Shown here one piece after another: positions 14,893 through 46,380 of a stretch of DNA of 47,416 nt. How positions within the stretch are numbered: the first letter of the stretch is position 1; the number at the start of each line of letters is the position of its first letter. The DNA is from an uncultured bacterium (GTDB lineage Bacteria; Patescibacteriota; Minisyncoccia; UBA6257; UBA9933). Under the pieces are notes generated by a model. It was not told the origin of the DNA, did not search any database, and saw nothing but the letters and a program-made list of their open reading frames with translations. Location: assembly GCA_913009635.1 (NCBI GenBank), contig CAJVXI010000005.1, forward strand, positions 1 to 47,416, in the 5' to 3' direction. A program made the translations under genes and the position numbers.

Positions 14893-15040
14893 AAAATTCC
14901 AAATTCCAAGCACCAAATTACAAATAAACTCTAAATTCCAATTACCGAAATTCTAAACACGACGTGTTTCGGTCATTGAGATTTTGGTCATTGGATATTG
15001 TTTGTTATTTGGAATTTGTTATTTGGTGTTTCTTTGAATT
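14893..15040. repeat. Inverted word-repeat element, copy 1
   Basis: The left arm consists of AATTCCAAAT, AAGCACCAAATTAC and CCGAAATTCTAAACACG. The right arm is their complement, TTTCGGTCATTGAG, TTGGTCATTGG, TTATTTGGAATTTG. The apex is ACGACGTG. It ends just before the -10 TATAAT (15047) of the exonuclease gene. Other copies are at 26623, 28300, 32730, 37752 and 46212. Confidence 0.85.
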
Positions 15041-24626: not shown

Positions 24627-24821
24627 ACTCCTCGGGATGATTATTTTGTAATATATTTTAGTAATTTAAATCTCTCACTAATCTTTCCTCACATTTGTTC
24701 GGAATGATTGAAATTCTATGCTTCGCTTTAATGCTCAGCATGAATTTCTAATCAGCTGCCGGGCTCTCCTTCGCATAAAGCTTCGGAAGAGCGCAAGCCG
24801 GCATCACTCGTTTTACTCGTG
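24627..24821. other. Spacer with short hairpins
   Basis: No gene seen. It holds a GCTTCGGAAGAGC hairpin, GCCGGC, and a 10-base copy (24755-24764) of the tRNA 3' end sequence GCTGCCGGGC found at 24821-24830. Confidence 0.4.
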
Positions 24822-24892
24822 CTGCCGGGCAGGGAATCGGACCCCGATTTTCAGGACCAAAACCTGACGTGCTACCATTACACCACCCGGCA
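24822..24892 (-). tRNA. trnQ: tRNA-Gln (anticodon TTG)
   Basis: Cloverleaf read on the minus strand: acceptor TGCCGGG / CCCGGCA, D-stem GTGT/GCAC, anticodon stem TCAGG/CCTGA with loop TTTTGGT (anticodon UUG, decoding CAA and by wobble CAG), T-stem CGGGG/CCCTG with loop TCCGATT. Discriminator base G; CCA is not encoded. It marks the right edge of the accessory block. Confidence 0.95.
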
Positions 24893-24902
24893 TTGTATTA
24901 AA

Positions 24903-25016
24903 CTAAAATACTAAAGTACTTAAAAACTAAAAGCTTATCTATTTAAATACTAAAGTACTTAAAAACTGAAAGCTTATCCATAACTTAAATACTAAAGTAC
25001 TTAAAAACTAAAGGCC
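24903..25016. repeat. Tandem TACTAAAGTACTTAAAAACT repeat (3 copies)
   Basis: Three near-identical units, each AAATACTAAAGTACTT then AAAAACTAAAAG, lie downstream of the four-helix-bundle gene. Its complement-type partner lies on the other side of the gene at 25377-25433, so the gene is enclosed by inverted arms. Confidence 0.85.
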
Positions 25017-25376
25017 TTACTTAGTTAATTTTTTCTTAAAATTTCCTAGTTGCCTTACAATATTTTTACATTTTTCAGTGCTCTTTTCAAATTTTTCTTT
25101 TGATAAAAGCTTATTATCATAAGCTATGTCTAGCCCAGCAATTACTTCATAAGCAGAACCAATGGCAATATTAAAAAATCTACCTAATTCTGGATCTGAA
25201 CTTTTTCCGCTACCCTCAGAAATATTCAATGCAATAGATATAGATGCTCTATTAATTTGACTGCCTAATTCATACCTGAAATTCTGAGGAAATTTATTAG
25301 TTATATTATAAATTTCTTTAACTAAGTTTTTGGCTTCTTTATAAACACTCCAATCCAAAAATCTAAATTCTTTCAT
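25017..25376 (-). CDS. Four-helix-bundle protein (23S intervening-sequence type), A
   Basis: 119 residues. ELGSQINRASISIALNISEG is the family hallmark, with the opening FRFLDWSVYKEAKNLVKEIY and C-terminal helix. The family (TIGR02436/S23) is named for ORFs in intervening sequences of 23S rRNA genes and is related to Avd of diversity-generating retroelements; molecular role is unresolved, with RNA or DNA binding likely. Here it is outside rRNA, between tRNA-Gln and dnaX, and enclosed by inverted TACTTAAAAACTAAA repeats. No SD. Confidence 0.9.
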   Translation of the reverse strand: MKEFRFLDWSVYKEAKNLVKEIYNITNKFPQNFRYELGSQINRASISIALNISEGSGKSSDPELGRFFNIAIGSAYEVIAGLDIAYDNKLLSKEKFEKSTEKCKNIVRQLGNFKKKLTK

Positions 25377-25433
25377 AGTGTATTTAAGTATTTAAGTTTT
25401 TTAGTCTTTAAGTATTTTAGTTTATACTTAAGT
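25377..25433. repeat. Right inverted arm of four-helix element A
   Basis: TATTTAAGTATTTAAG, TTTTTTAGTCTTTAAGT and ATTTTAGTTTATACTTAAG are the complementary words of the tandem array at 24903-25016. The arm runs into the last codons of dnaX (stop at 25417), so the repeat also forms the end of dnaX. Confidence 0.8.
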
Positions 25434-26622: not shown

Positions 26623-26802
26623 AAAATTTAAATTCCAAATTACAAATCCCAAATTACAAATCCTTCGACCCCGAGAACCTCAGGACCGAGGGGTAAATTC
26701 TAATGACCGAAATTCCAATGACCAAAACCCGTCATGTTTAGAATTTTGAATTTAGAATTTGGTGTTTATTTGTTATTTAGTGCTTGGTACTTGTGATTTA
26801 TT
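26623..26802. repeat. Inverted word-repeat element, copy 2
   Basis: Left words AATTCCAAATTACAAAT, then a nested TCGACCCCGAGAACCTCAGG block, CTAATGACCGAAATTCC, apex near AACCCGTCATG, and right words GAATTTAGAATTTGGTG and TTTGTTATTTAGTGCTTGG. It fills the spacer upstream of dnaX. The nested CCTCGG block recurs in copy 4. Confidence 0.8.
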
Positions 26803-27403: not shown

Positions 27404-28300
27404 ATGATAACTTTAGGCCTAGATATTGGCGCCACAAAAATAAGATACGTGGTTTTTGATGCAAAAAAACAAAAACTGCTTTTAAATAAAAAATTGAAAT
27501 ATCACCGTAAAACCCGGGGCGAATTTTTAAAAACTCTTAATAAAATTAACCAAGACAAAGAGCTTAAAGAGCTGAATTTCAGGAAAATCGGCATTGGGAT
27601 TGCTGGAATTGTTGAAAATGGTAAATTAGTTTATTCGCCAAATTTTCCAAAAATCAAAGGAATCAGTTTATCTAAAGAAATTAAATCCTTCGACTTTACT
27701 CCCGCCAAAGGCGAGGCTCGCCAGGGGCGGCAAAGCGCGCCAATCACCATTGAAAACGATGCTAACTGCTTCGCTTACGCAGAAGCTATTTTAGGAGCCG
27801 GCAAAAAATATAATAATATAGTAGGCCTAACTTTGGGCAGTGGATTAGGAGGAGGGATTATTATTAATAAAAAGATTTATCGCGGAAAGGGAAGTGCCGG
27901 AGAAGTCGGACACACTATAATAAAAATCCTAAATCCTAAATCCAAAATCCTAAATCCTGCTGAGGCAGAGGATTTGTGTTCTGAAAAGTTTTTTCATAAA
28001 TTAGGCATTAAAAATCTGCTTGATTTAGAATTAAAAGCTAAAAAAGGTGACAAAAAAGCAAAAAAGATTTACGAAGATTTCGGCATAAATTTAGGAATAG
28101 TTATTGCTAATATTGTAAACATATTGGATCCAGATGTAGTTGTTTTGGGCGGGAGCTTATCTAATGCTTATAATATTTTTATACGAGAAACCAAAAAAAC
28201 AGCCAAGAAATTTATTGTTAATCCAAAATCCAAAAATATTCCTATTTTAAAATCGCATTTAGGAAAATCAGCAGGAGCAATAGGAGCAGCATTGTTATAG
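27404..28300 (+). CDS. ROK-family sugar kinase
   Basis: 298 residues from MITLGLDIGATKIRYVVFD (phosphate-1 loop). IENDANCFAYAEA supplies the catalytic Asp in DAN, then LTLGSGLGGGII and GSAGEVGHT, the ROK sugar-binding Glu-x2-His. The usual zinc motif C-x-C-G-x2-G-C-x2-E after this His is missing. In its place a CCTAAATCCTAAATCC stutter (27925-27960) codes for KILNPKSKILNPAEAEDL. A GC-rich palindrome at 27690-27745 adds TPAKGEARQGRQSAP. A glucokinase-type activity is likely but the zinc loss makes it uncertain. TreT is downstream. Confidence 0.82.
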   Translation: MITLGLDIGATKIRYVVFDAKKQKLLLNKKLKYHRKTRGEFLKTLNKINQDKELKELNFRKIGIGIAGIVENGKLVYSPNFPKIKGISLSKEIKSFDFTPAKGEARQGRQSAPITIENDANCFAYAEAILGAGKKYNNIVGLTLGSGLGGGIIINKKIYRGKGSAGEVGHTIIKILNPKSKILNPAEAEDLCSEKFFHKLGIKNLLDLELKAKKGDKKAKKIYEDFGINLGIVIANIVNILDPDVVVLGGSLSNAYNIFIRETKKTAKKFIVNPKSKNIPILKSHLGKSAGAIGAALL

Positions 28301-28342
28301 TAAAATTCCAAGCACTAAGCACCAAATAACAAATAAATTTCA
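28300..28342. repeat. Left arm of element copy 3
   Basis: AATTCCAAGCACTAAGCACC and AAATAACAAATAAATTTC, the same left-arm words as in the gene-less copies. The arm continues into the next gene: ATG and the following bases are AATGACCGAAAT, an element word. Confidence 0.85.
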
Positions 28343-28708
28343 ATGACCGAAATATCAAACTCAAAACAATATGATTTAGAAGAACGTACTTATCAATTTA
28401 CTAAAAATGTATCTATTTTTTGCAGAAATTTACTAAAAACTACTTCTAATATAGAATATATAAAACAAGTTATCAGATCATCTGGCTCAGTAGGAGCAAA
28501 CTATATTGAAGCGAATGAATCGCTTAGTAAAAAGGATTTTGTAATGAGAATTAAGATTTGTCGCAAAGAAGCAAAAGAAAGTGCCTATTGGCTAAGATTA
28601 ATAATAGAAACGAATCCAGAGAAATTTACAAAAGAAGGAGGATTATTTTTAAATGAATCTATAGAATTAAAGAAGATATTTTCTTCTATTTTGAGCAAGA
28701 GTCAATAA
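28343..28708 (+). CDS. Four-helix-bundle protein (23S intervening-sequence type), B
   Basis: 121 residues. IRSSGSVGANYIEANESLSK and DFVMRIKICRKEAKESAYWL are the family hallmarks. It belongs to a different subfamily from the copy at 25017. Its start codon and first codons (MTEIS) are formed by the inverted-repeat word AATGACCGAAAT, and the matching GGTCATT words follow its stop. So the gene occupies the apex of an element that elsewhere in the window is gene-less. No SD. Confidence 0.9.
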   Translation: MTEISNSKQYDLEERTYQFTKNVSIFCRNLLKTTSNIEYIKQVIRSSGSVGANYIEANESLSKKDFVMRIKICRKEAKESAYWLRLIIETNPEKFTKEGGLFLNESIELKKIFSSILSKSQ

Positions 28709-28780
28709 GTTTTGGTCATTTGAATTTCGAATTTTGGTCATTATTTGAAATTTGGAATTTGTGATTTGGAATTTAAAAAA
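28709..28780. repeat. Right arm of element copy 3
   Basis: TTTTGGTCATTTGAATTTCG, TTTGGTCATTATTTG, AAATTTGGAATTTGTG. These complement the left arm at 28300-28360. The arm ends four bases before the treT start. Confidence 0.85.
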
Positions 28781-32207: not shown

Positions 32208-32753
32208 ATGAATAAAGCAGAAAATAATCAAAATATTACTGGTGCGGTTGAGGCAATTCTTTTTGTTTATGGCGAGCCGATGGAAATAAAGAAAATCGCT
32301 AAAATTTTAAAAATCAGTGAATCAAAAATAAAAGAAGCCATTCAACAACTTGAACAGGAATTTTTAGTTGAGAATAGGGGATTGAAATTAATTTTTATTG
32401 GCGAACGAGTTCAGTTGGCAACTAAGCCGGAATTTGTTTCAATAATAGAGAATATTATTAAAGAAGAATCAAAAGAAACTCTTACTCCGGCTTCTTTGGA
32501 AACGCTTTCGCTAATTGCTTATTTGGGTCCGCTTTCCAGGGCTCAGATTGATTTTTATCGGGGAGTAAATTCTTCTTTTATTCTGCGAGCTCTTTTAATA
32601 AGGGGATTGGTTGAGCGTTTTTCGGACGTTAAAAGAGCTAATATGTATCTTTATAAACCAAGTTTTGATTTGTTAAAATATTTAGGGGTTTCCAAAGTTG
32701 AAGAATTACCGGAATATGATAGATATAAATCACAAGCACCAAGCACCAAATAA
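32208..32753 (+). CDS. scpB: Segregation and condensation protein B
   Basis: 181 residues. Two winged-helix domains: AVEAILFVYGEPMEIKKIAK, LIFIGERVQLATKPEF, then SLETLSLIAYLGPLSRAQID and VERFSDVKRANMYLYKPSFD. ScpB dimers stabilise the ScpA-SMC complex. The last residues (QAPSTK) and the TAA stop are made by the left arm of an inverted word-repeat, AAGCACCAAATAAC. Confidence 0.93.
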   Translation: MNKAENNQNITGAVEAILFVYGEPMEIKKIAKILKISESKIKEAIQQLEQEFLVENRGLKLIFIGERVQLATKPEFVSIIENIIKEESKETLTPASLETLSLIAYLGPLSRAQIDFYRGVNSSFILRALLIRGLVERFSDVKRANMYLYKPSFDLLKYLGVSKVEELPEYDRYKSQAPSTK

Positions 32754-32893
32754 CAAATAAGCACCAAATTCTATCCGCCAGCTGGCGGACTAAACACTGG
32801 TTTCGGTCATTGGAATTTACCCCTCGGTCCTGAAATTCTCGGAGTTGAAGGATTTGGAATTTGGAATTTGAAATTTGTTATTTGGAATTTTTA
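32730..32893. repeat. Inverted word-repeat element, copy 4
   Basis: Left words AAGCACCAAGCACC and AAATAACAAATAAG, apex CCGCCAGCTGGCGGA, then TTTCGGTCATTGG, a nested CCCCTCGGTCCTGAAATTC block, and right words GGAATTTGGAATTTG and GTTATTTGGAATTT. It supplies the end of scpB and reaches up to the ATG of the carboxypeptidase gene. Confidence 0.85.
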
Positions 32894-37751: not shown

Positions 37752-37893
37752 AATTCCAAATAACAAATTCCAAATCTCAAATAAATTCCAAATTTCAATT
37801 ACCGAAATTCTAAACACGACGGGTTTTGGTCATTGAGATTTTGGTCATTGAGTATTATTTGTAATTTGGTGCTTGGAATTTGAGATTTATAAA
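37752..37893. repeat. Inverted word-repeat element, copy 5, with a murG promoter
   Basis: Left words AATTCCAAATAACAAATTCC and CCGAAATTCTAAACACG, right words TTTTGGTCATTGAG twice and TTTGGTGCTTGGAATTTGAG. The right edge runs into TATAAA (37888), five bases before the murG ATG, and TTTGGT stands 17 bases further up. So the element itself appears to carry the murG promoter. Confidence 0.8.
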
Positions 37894-46211: not shown

Positions 46212-46380
46212 ATTATAAAATTTCAAGCACCGAAATTTTAAGCACCAAATTACAAGCACCAAATTACAAATAAGCACCAAATTCTATTCGTCAGCTGGCG
46301 GACTAAATACGAGTTTCGGTTATTGAGATTTTGGTCATTGGATATTGTTTGTTATTTGGAATTTGTTATTTGGAATTTTA
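46212..46380. repeat. Inverted word-repeat element, copy 6
   Basis: Left words AAGCACCGAAATTTT, AAGCACCAAATTAC twice, apex TCAGCTGGCGGACTAAATAC, right words TTTCGGTTATTGAG, TTTTGGTCATTGG and TTATTTGGAATTTGTTATTT. Its last bases overlap the stop of ftsX. Apex is shared with copy 4. Confidence 0.85.

Follow-up and report, generated by a model that had tools for sequence, protein, structure and literature searches.

In this study, we analysed a small gene of the S23 four-helix-bundle family on contig CAJVXI010000005.1 of an uncultured bacterium of the Patescibacteriota (assembly GCA_913009635.1). The whole stretch of 47,416 nucleotides, called the window below, is contig C5 of a 713 kb genome of 26 contigs that is 98% complete. 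We believe that the S23 gene and the two inverted arrays of heptad words enclosing it, here called arms, are one mobile element that generalises the intervening sequences (IVSs) of ribosomal RNA (rRNA) genes, and that its protein recognises its own words; as a whole, we give this best explanation a probability of roughly 70%. The unit opens with an inward-reading array of about five heptad words, in the last of which the S23 open reading frame (ORF) begins; the reverse-complement array follows the stop codon. Orthologous operon spacers of congeneric species differ in whether they contain the unit. S23 genes are known mainly from insertions in rRNA genes, and we know of no function assigned to the S23/IVP family since its discovery in fragmented 23S rRNA genes.

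The S23 locus of the window

The S23 gene lies on the forward strand at 28343–28708 and encodes a protein of 121 aa, which passes the curated cut-offs of TIGR02436 (65 bits, cut-off 24; E 6e-18) and PF05635 (45.9 bits, cut-off 33.8). The initial annotation, made from the letters alone, had named the same family, that of the 23S rRNA intervening sequences. The left arm (28302–28342, forward strand) is composed of the inward-reading heptad words AATTCC AAGCACT AAGCACC AAATAAC AAATAAA..., in which the variable letter X described below is mostly C, and the right arm (28709–28776, forward strand) contains the reverse-complement words GGTCATT, GAATTTC, GGTCATT, and TTGAAATTTGGAATTTGTGATTTGGAATTT. 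The stop codon of the upstream ROK-type ORF is at 28298–28300 and the left arm begins one base later, at 28302, while the right arm ends at 28776, 8 nt ahead of the likely ATG of the downstream gene (28784). Direct reading of 28300–28780 showed that the gene and both arms occupy the entire spacer between these two protein genes, outside rRNA, and that the complementarity of the arms does not stop at the start codon but reaches the first codons (MTEIS), as had been noted at the outset.

The AlphaFold model of the protein (predicted local distance difference test, pLDDT, 92) has four helices, and its top PDB matches are 2RLD and 2GSC. The fold also matches 4DWL and 8UB7, of the Avd protein, which is part of the reverse transcriptase (RT) complex of diversity-generating retroelements (DGRs). 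The arm complementarity score of the locus was 35, which 22 of 658 other genes of the genome also reached, so the single locus is not extreme; the full set of 12 S23 genes described below is. The predicted RNA fold of 28300–28780 had a z value of −3.07, and none of 100 shuffles was equally stable.

Arms around S23 genes in the genome, the family and other phyla

The genome contains 12 PF05635 genes. By eye, all 12 have a word array directly 5' of the start codon and its reverse-complement array directly 3' of the stop codon, and the arm word changes from gene to gene (for example, CTAGCCACTAGCCACTAG, TTGTTACATTGTTACATTG, CAACCTACAACCTACAAC, and TGTTGTAATGTTGTAATG). In the 12 × 12 matrix of left and right arms, the diagonal was mostly the row maximum: own pairs scored 25–61 and mismatched pairs had a median of 19. 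The 658 other genes, which served as the genome control, had a median of 19 and a 95th percentile of 30. PF05635 matches were found in 19 of the 22 genomes of the taxonomic family. The own-arm median of the 65 family loci with full flanks was 33; mismatched arms had a median of 18 (p = 2e-26), and other ORFs taken from these loci one of 17 (p = 2.5e-22).

A search of 84,980 species genomes, with nine relatives of the window protein as queries, gave more than 570 loci, of which the 80 best were analysed. Their proteins were 56–74% identical and came from Patescibacteria, Planctomycetota (Brocadia, Scalindua), Bacteroidota, Chloroflexota, several proteobacterial groups, and a Methanophagales archaeon bin; because nearly all of these genomes are metagenome bins, single taxon assignments may be wrong. 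Here 688 control ORFs served for comparison: of the 79 loci with full flanks, 70 lay above their 95th percentile and 54 above their 99th (p = 1e-40). The enrichment of arms beside S23 genes, which had been named in advance as a check, was therefore found in the family and across phyla. Both flanking genes were common to only 14 of 3160 pairs of cross-phylum loci, which indicates unrelated neighbourhoods. Five Planctomycetota loci of clade B (L159, L174, L193, L197, and L199) have homologous flanking ORFs, either by vertical retention or by repeated use of one site. Strong arms were also seen on plasmids of cultured cyanobacteria, namely Nostoc (score 61) and Euhalothece (56), and the arms on the Euhalothece plasmid are CCAGTGA heptads.

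Empty sites and gene-less copies

The flanks of five S23 loci from genus g16 were searched in its four species, and all five sites carried the element in one or two species and lacked it in another. For example, the livH-livM spacer carries the arms and the gene in G018, and the two genes almost abut in G020. At a second clean site, G018 reads TGATATGAAC, and G020 and G019 read TGATA[ATGTGAGATT ... ATCTCACACCC]ATGAAC (G020 letters). At these two cleanest sites, the insert is exactly the arms and the gene; some of the empty spacers contain other word arrays. In addition, the S23 genes at C1:4202 and C7:27561 are near-identical, and since their shared sequence stops at the arm boundaries, they represent a recent copy. 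With these empty sites in close relatives and the same arms beside related proteins in many phyla, the mobility that the initial annotation had only proposed gains firm ground, and we consider the unit to be very probably a mobile element.

The word hairpin of the window family occurs in 24 gene-less copies and one gene-bearing copy genome-wide. Exactly five gene-less copies lie within the window, as originally counted, at 14900–15025, 26629–26800, 32726–32884, 37757–37889, and 46224–46372 (no strand assigned). When the ORF was cut out, the gene-bearing copy aligned end to end with all 24 gene-less copies; the alignment spans the inner GGTCATT words and a stretch matching the first codons, and a short tip stands for the ORF. 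The 24 short copies share both ends with the gene-bearing copy, as in miniature inverted-repeat transposable elements (MITEs). The gene-less copies are deletion derivatives of the window's word family, dispersed in the genome, which agrees with the earlier idea of a gene-bearing parent with gene-less derivatives. In total, the genome has 95 word arrays of at least three words, compared with 7 in the shuffled genome. The other S23 word families of the genome had fewer gene-less copies, with the exception of the closely related AATTTCTAATTT elements (24–29 array matches) and C11 (17); random upstream 45-mers gave 0–12. Several gene-less copies, including that at 26629–26800 with its CCCCGAGA..GGACCGAGGGG insert and that at 32726–32884, have another short hairpin (CCTTCGACCCCGAGAATTTCAGGACCGAGGGG or TCCGCCAGCTGGCGGA) nested in their arms.

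Word grammar and pairing of the arms

Both arms show autocorrelation peaks at 7 and 14, and distant flanks are flat. In the window clade, the word is XAA-N4, with N4 taken from a small dictionary (ATTC, GCAC, ATCC, ATAA, ATTA, TATC, and others) that is common to the gene-less copies of the genome and the elements of other phyla. The letter X is C, T, or G. The two arms agreed on it in 51 of 67 elements, and permutations gave a mean of 22.7 with a maximum of 38. The median chain length was five words in either arm; controls mostly had 1–2. The grammar persisted at loci with flanks of up to 69% GC.

These results bear on whether there is an element at all. In AT-rich spacers, heptad repeats could be born by slippage, and S23 would then be an ordinary operon gene with regulatory repeats. 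The arms of this genome are indeed low-complexity and AT-rich, and most of its S23 word families have few gene-less copies, a point that also weighs on our own explanation. However, the empty sites, where the insert stops at the arms, and the conservation across phyla in unrelated neighbourhoods already contradict slippage, and the grammar at high GC, the common X of both arms, and the arm-less Avd-type relatives described below point the same way. We regard an origin by slippage as very improbable.

Another possibility is that the element acts at the RNA level: the arms would be an mRNA stem that is cut by RNase III or regulates S23 translation, and the RNA would be copied by an RT with S23 acting like Avd. 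S23 is homologous to Avd of the DGR RT complex, the start codon lies within the stem, the RNA fold is significant, and the excision of the Coxiella IVS by RNase III has been shown experimentally (PMC4990558). A transcript-based step would also fit the orientation of the genes: where both neighbours agree, S23 follows their direction 62:0 and 51:1 (113:1 together), compared with 182:28 for other small genes. On the other hand, RT is missing from 11 of the 22 family genomes, among them G003, G004, G008, G009, G010, and G013, which carry armed S23 genes and are at least 93% complete. Moreover, the S23-family genes that do adjoin an RT are arm-less (G014:C11, G019:C3, G020:C5, G005:C17, G005:C4, and G006:C16; L115, L117, L118, L119, L120, and L121). 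These are genes of the DGR Avd type, and they form a natural internal negative control.

The arms themselves also argue against an RNA stem. Arms from different X classes matched poorly (p < 1e-40), but within a class the comparison of own arms with those of other elements gave p values of 0.82 for T, 0.66 for G, and 0.016 for C, so own-arm complementarity is no higher than the grammar predicts. There was no G.U strand bias, the G.U and A.C mismatches being 168:152 and 102:124. Since own arms are not better paired than same-class arms and G.U is not in excess, the conserved feature appears to be two inverted word arrays rather than an RNA stem formed by base pairing, even if the transcript is able to fold. 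We therefore rejected conservation of an RNA stem, and the first suggestion that the protein works on its base-paired hairpin, as an RNA-processing unit, was not borne out. In the 24 gene-less copies, the own-arm median (27.5) was even lower than that of cross-copy pairs (41), which may reflect the instability of long perfect palindromes or a failure to assemble them. The gene-less copies of the genome avoid perfect palindromes, and their words are exchanged as whole heptads. Taken together, we judge the RNA-level explanation to be improbable, and for the mobile element we lean towards a DNA-level step.

Protein clade and word family

Between genomes, protein similarity predicted arm-word similarity (left r = 0.17, right r = 0.22, Mantel p ≤ 0.0005), and the arm-word cosine was 0.45 at 50–75% protein identity and about 0.25 below. 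On the protein tree of the 57 clade-B loci, X requires 7 changes, compared with 26 when labels are shuffled. The alignment columns most informative on X were 118, 119, 122, and 126, which correspond to K110, K111, S114, and S118 of the last helix of the window protein. X was C with S122, T with G122 and E126, and G with N119, G122, and R/H126 (alignment columns). In the predicted structure (pLDDT 92), the X-linked residues lie in helix 4 (93–120), offset from the conserved L109, I112, F113, and I116, which likely form the protein core. In identity-matched pairs, column 118 (residue 110) differed in 30 of 38 X-different pairs and 14 of 37 X-same pairs (rank 1 of 116, p = 0.0003), and columns 122 and 126 ranked 4 and 6, respectively. 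The covariation of helix 4 with X is strong in raw form and moderate after phylogenetic matching. The independent-pairs test on supported branches yielded only two pairs, too few for power.

Applied blind, a helix-4 rule learned on the training set gave the right X for 27 of 48 held-out loci, most of which came from a sister subclade; permutations gave a mean of 21.3 and a maximum of 32, so the result is not convincing. By table inspection, the rule was right in 8 of the 9 held-out proteins that were more than 55% identical to the training set. A simple helix-4 code for X in all held-out loci thus failed, and only a correlation at the subclade level was retained. From these results, we believe that the link between clade and word is firm, protein clade and word family travelling together across genomes and phyla, and that direct recognition of the words by helix 4 is plausible but not proven. 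That the S23 protein reads its own words is, in our view, fairly probable. The solved relatives 2RLD and 2GSC have five chains (A–E), and the Xanthomonas protein has been reported as a homopentamer (PMC4990558).

Candidate partners

We also considered that the S23 gene might be a passenger, that is, cargo or a regulator in word hairpins made or moved in trans by a RAYT (transposase associated with repetitive extragenic palindromes, REPs) or other Y1 transposase, or by the GxxExxY nuclease. The gene-less hairpins require some machinery, RAYT genes are present in the genome, and GxxExxY genes (PD-(D/E)XK superfamily, TIGR04256) lie in word arms of the S23 style. For example, GxxExxY is inserted in frame in lepA (C19:2696-5014; L087/L252) and recG (C9:23114-25759; L088), with arms of inverted ACGCAGAC/ACGGAC-type words; the lepA insert is carried by G004 and G001, and the alignment breaks there in most relatives.

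However, the distribution of these genes does not follow that of armed S23. Of the 22 family genomes, 9 are without Y1 transposase and 7 without GxxExxY. Armed S23 genes occur in the Y1-free genomes G003, G007, G009, G010, and G013, and G009 (eight S23 matches), G010, and G013 have neither RT nor Y1. G003, which is 96% complete, has two S23 genes, one of them strongly armed (score 56), and no RT, Y1, or GxxExxY. The RAYT genes of the genome adjoin different, short perfect palindromes, and the link of S23 clade to word family is unexpected of random cargo. Accordingly, three candidates were rejected: RT as mobiliser, for its absence from half of the family genomes; RAYT as mobiliser, for its different REPs and the missing Y1 in several S23-rich genomes; and GxxExxY as an obligatory partner, being missing from G003, G005, G006, G008, G018, and G019. 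The initial comparison with REP/RAYT pairs holds for the pairing of gene-bearing and gene-less copies and fails for the enzyme. We think it doubtful that S23 is a passenger; that its element has no dedicated recombinase partner at all has, to us, somewhat less than an even chance.

Large ORFs containing GxxExxY were also seen in G009, G010, G014, G015, and G016. Gene-less in-frame word hairpins occur in lepA, recG, gyrA (L045:7703-10261), and gatA (L018:9078-10649); they encode peptides like ARTNTDYTQTNTDSLHKSA and resemble Rickettsia palindromic elements (RPEs). Three PaaX/Cas2-like regulators (G000:C10:238-852, C13:480-1079, and C6:25444-26058) have long palindromes centred on GCGATCGC/ACGATCGT on both sides, possibly another element or an autoregulatory operator.

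A second S23 element in the window

The window contains a second S23 gene, of another clade, on the reverse strand at 25017–25376 (119 aa, TIGR02436 E 1.5e-30). Its left (gene-5') arm is at 25379–25429 with the words ACTTAAAT/ACTAAAAT, and its right (gene-3') arm, at 24901–25016 with the words AGTACTTTAGTATTTAAG, adjoins tRNA-Gln (24821–24892); both arms are on the reverse strand. Its words are unlike those of the gene at 28343, and it was absent from the initial annotation.

Discussion

We propose the following way in which such an element would work. An S23 pentamer, as in 2RLD and 2GSC, would bind the five-word arrays at both ends and thereby define the element; it would recognise the words by the exposed side of helix 4, perhaps with each subunit taking one heptad. 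Binding would mark both ends and bring them together, and strand transfer would be left to host replication and repair enzymes or to an additional partner. S23 would be expressed from the operon that the element entered; the orientation of the genes fits this, and expression by read-through seems to be the case. The rRNA IVS would be a special case in which the element landed in an rRNA gene and RNase III cuts the stem. A bolder version holds that these are a class of transposase-free elements, in which the address at either end, five heptads long, is read by a small pentameric four-helix-bundle protein with a subunit for each seven-base word and a residue-to-base code on helix 4, and of which rRNA IVSs, the S23 genes of cas operons, and Avd are offshoots; we consider it rather unlikely.

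Besides the few gene-less copies of most word families and the limited success of the helix-4 rule, several observations count against the mobile element with a self-recognising protein. The S23 protein carries no transposase, nuclease, or RT motif and no Y1/HUH domain. No convincing target-site duplication was seen at the examined sites, and no transposition event was observed. The site in the window has no informative empty counterpart: among the relatives, the downstream gene turned up in a single one, where another gene precedes it. A purely DNA-level mechanism does not predict the 113:1 orientation bias unless expression is under selection. There are also antisense copies: on Anabaena cylindrica pANACY.01 (L365) and Nostoc TCL26-01 pB (L366), an antisense S23 gene lies between cas2 and cas1. 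In a previous study, 18 IVP genes in cas loci were read as CRISPR-associated (PMC3936711); the plasmid loci fit insertions rather than CRISPR components. As for carriage by phages, no relative was confirmed in IMG/VR, and two weak tblastn matches were found in phage records.

Compared with known systems, the elements are closest to the rRNA IVSs with an S23/IVP ORF in Leptospira, Coxiella, and bacteria of the Candidate Phyla Radiation (CPR), which have the same protein family, have complementary ends around the ORF, and are regarded as selfish. The Coxiella IVS has tandem heptamers (GACAGAT) directly 5' of the S23 start codon (PMC4990558), and in CPR bacteria IVP ORFs have been reported in 16S and 23S insertions (PMC11270868). 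In contrast to IVSs, which are inside rRNA genes, the S23 loci described here are in operon spacers, and no conserved rRNA motif was present near any of the S23 loci scanned for it. The accessible IVS papers mention neither word-specific arms nor gene-less derivatives nor a covariation of protein and word. REP/RAYT systems likewise have a gene between inverted repeats and dispersed gene-less copies, but their palindromes are 20–40 nt and their enzyme is of the Y1 type, whereas the S23 elements have heptad arrays of about 35–60 nt, have no HUH/Y1 domain, and occur in Y1-free genomes too. Avd of DGRs is similar in fold and distantly homologous (TIGR02436/DivGenRetAVD; 4DWL, 8UB7), but it is RT-adjacent and without word arms, and S23 elements need no RT in the genome; the window contains no RT, and the sole RT of this genome is on contig C16. 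RPEs and MITEs are also gene-less palindromic insertions, in frame in some cases, as in gyrA and gatA here; the difference is that a gene-bearing parent of the gene-less word hairpins was identified in this study. In the open-access literature, subscription journals being outside the search, we found no paper in which word-armed elements outside rRNA are described as carrying S23 genes.

The arms supply the S23/IVP family with a candidate substrate, a candidate stoichiometry (five words, five subunits), and named residues. Because comparable elements are present on plasmids of cultured cyanobacteria (Nostoc, Euhalothece), bench tests are possible. A mobile S23 element of this kind would explain why S23 genes are found within rRNA genes and cas loci. 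It would also be the source of a class of dispersed hairpins of heptad words that occur in CPR bacteria, planctomycetes, chloroflexi, and other uncultured lineages.
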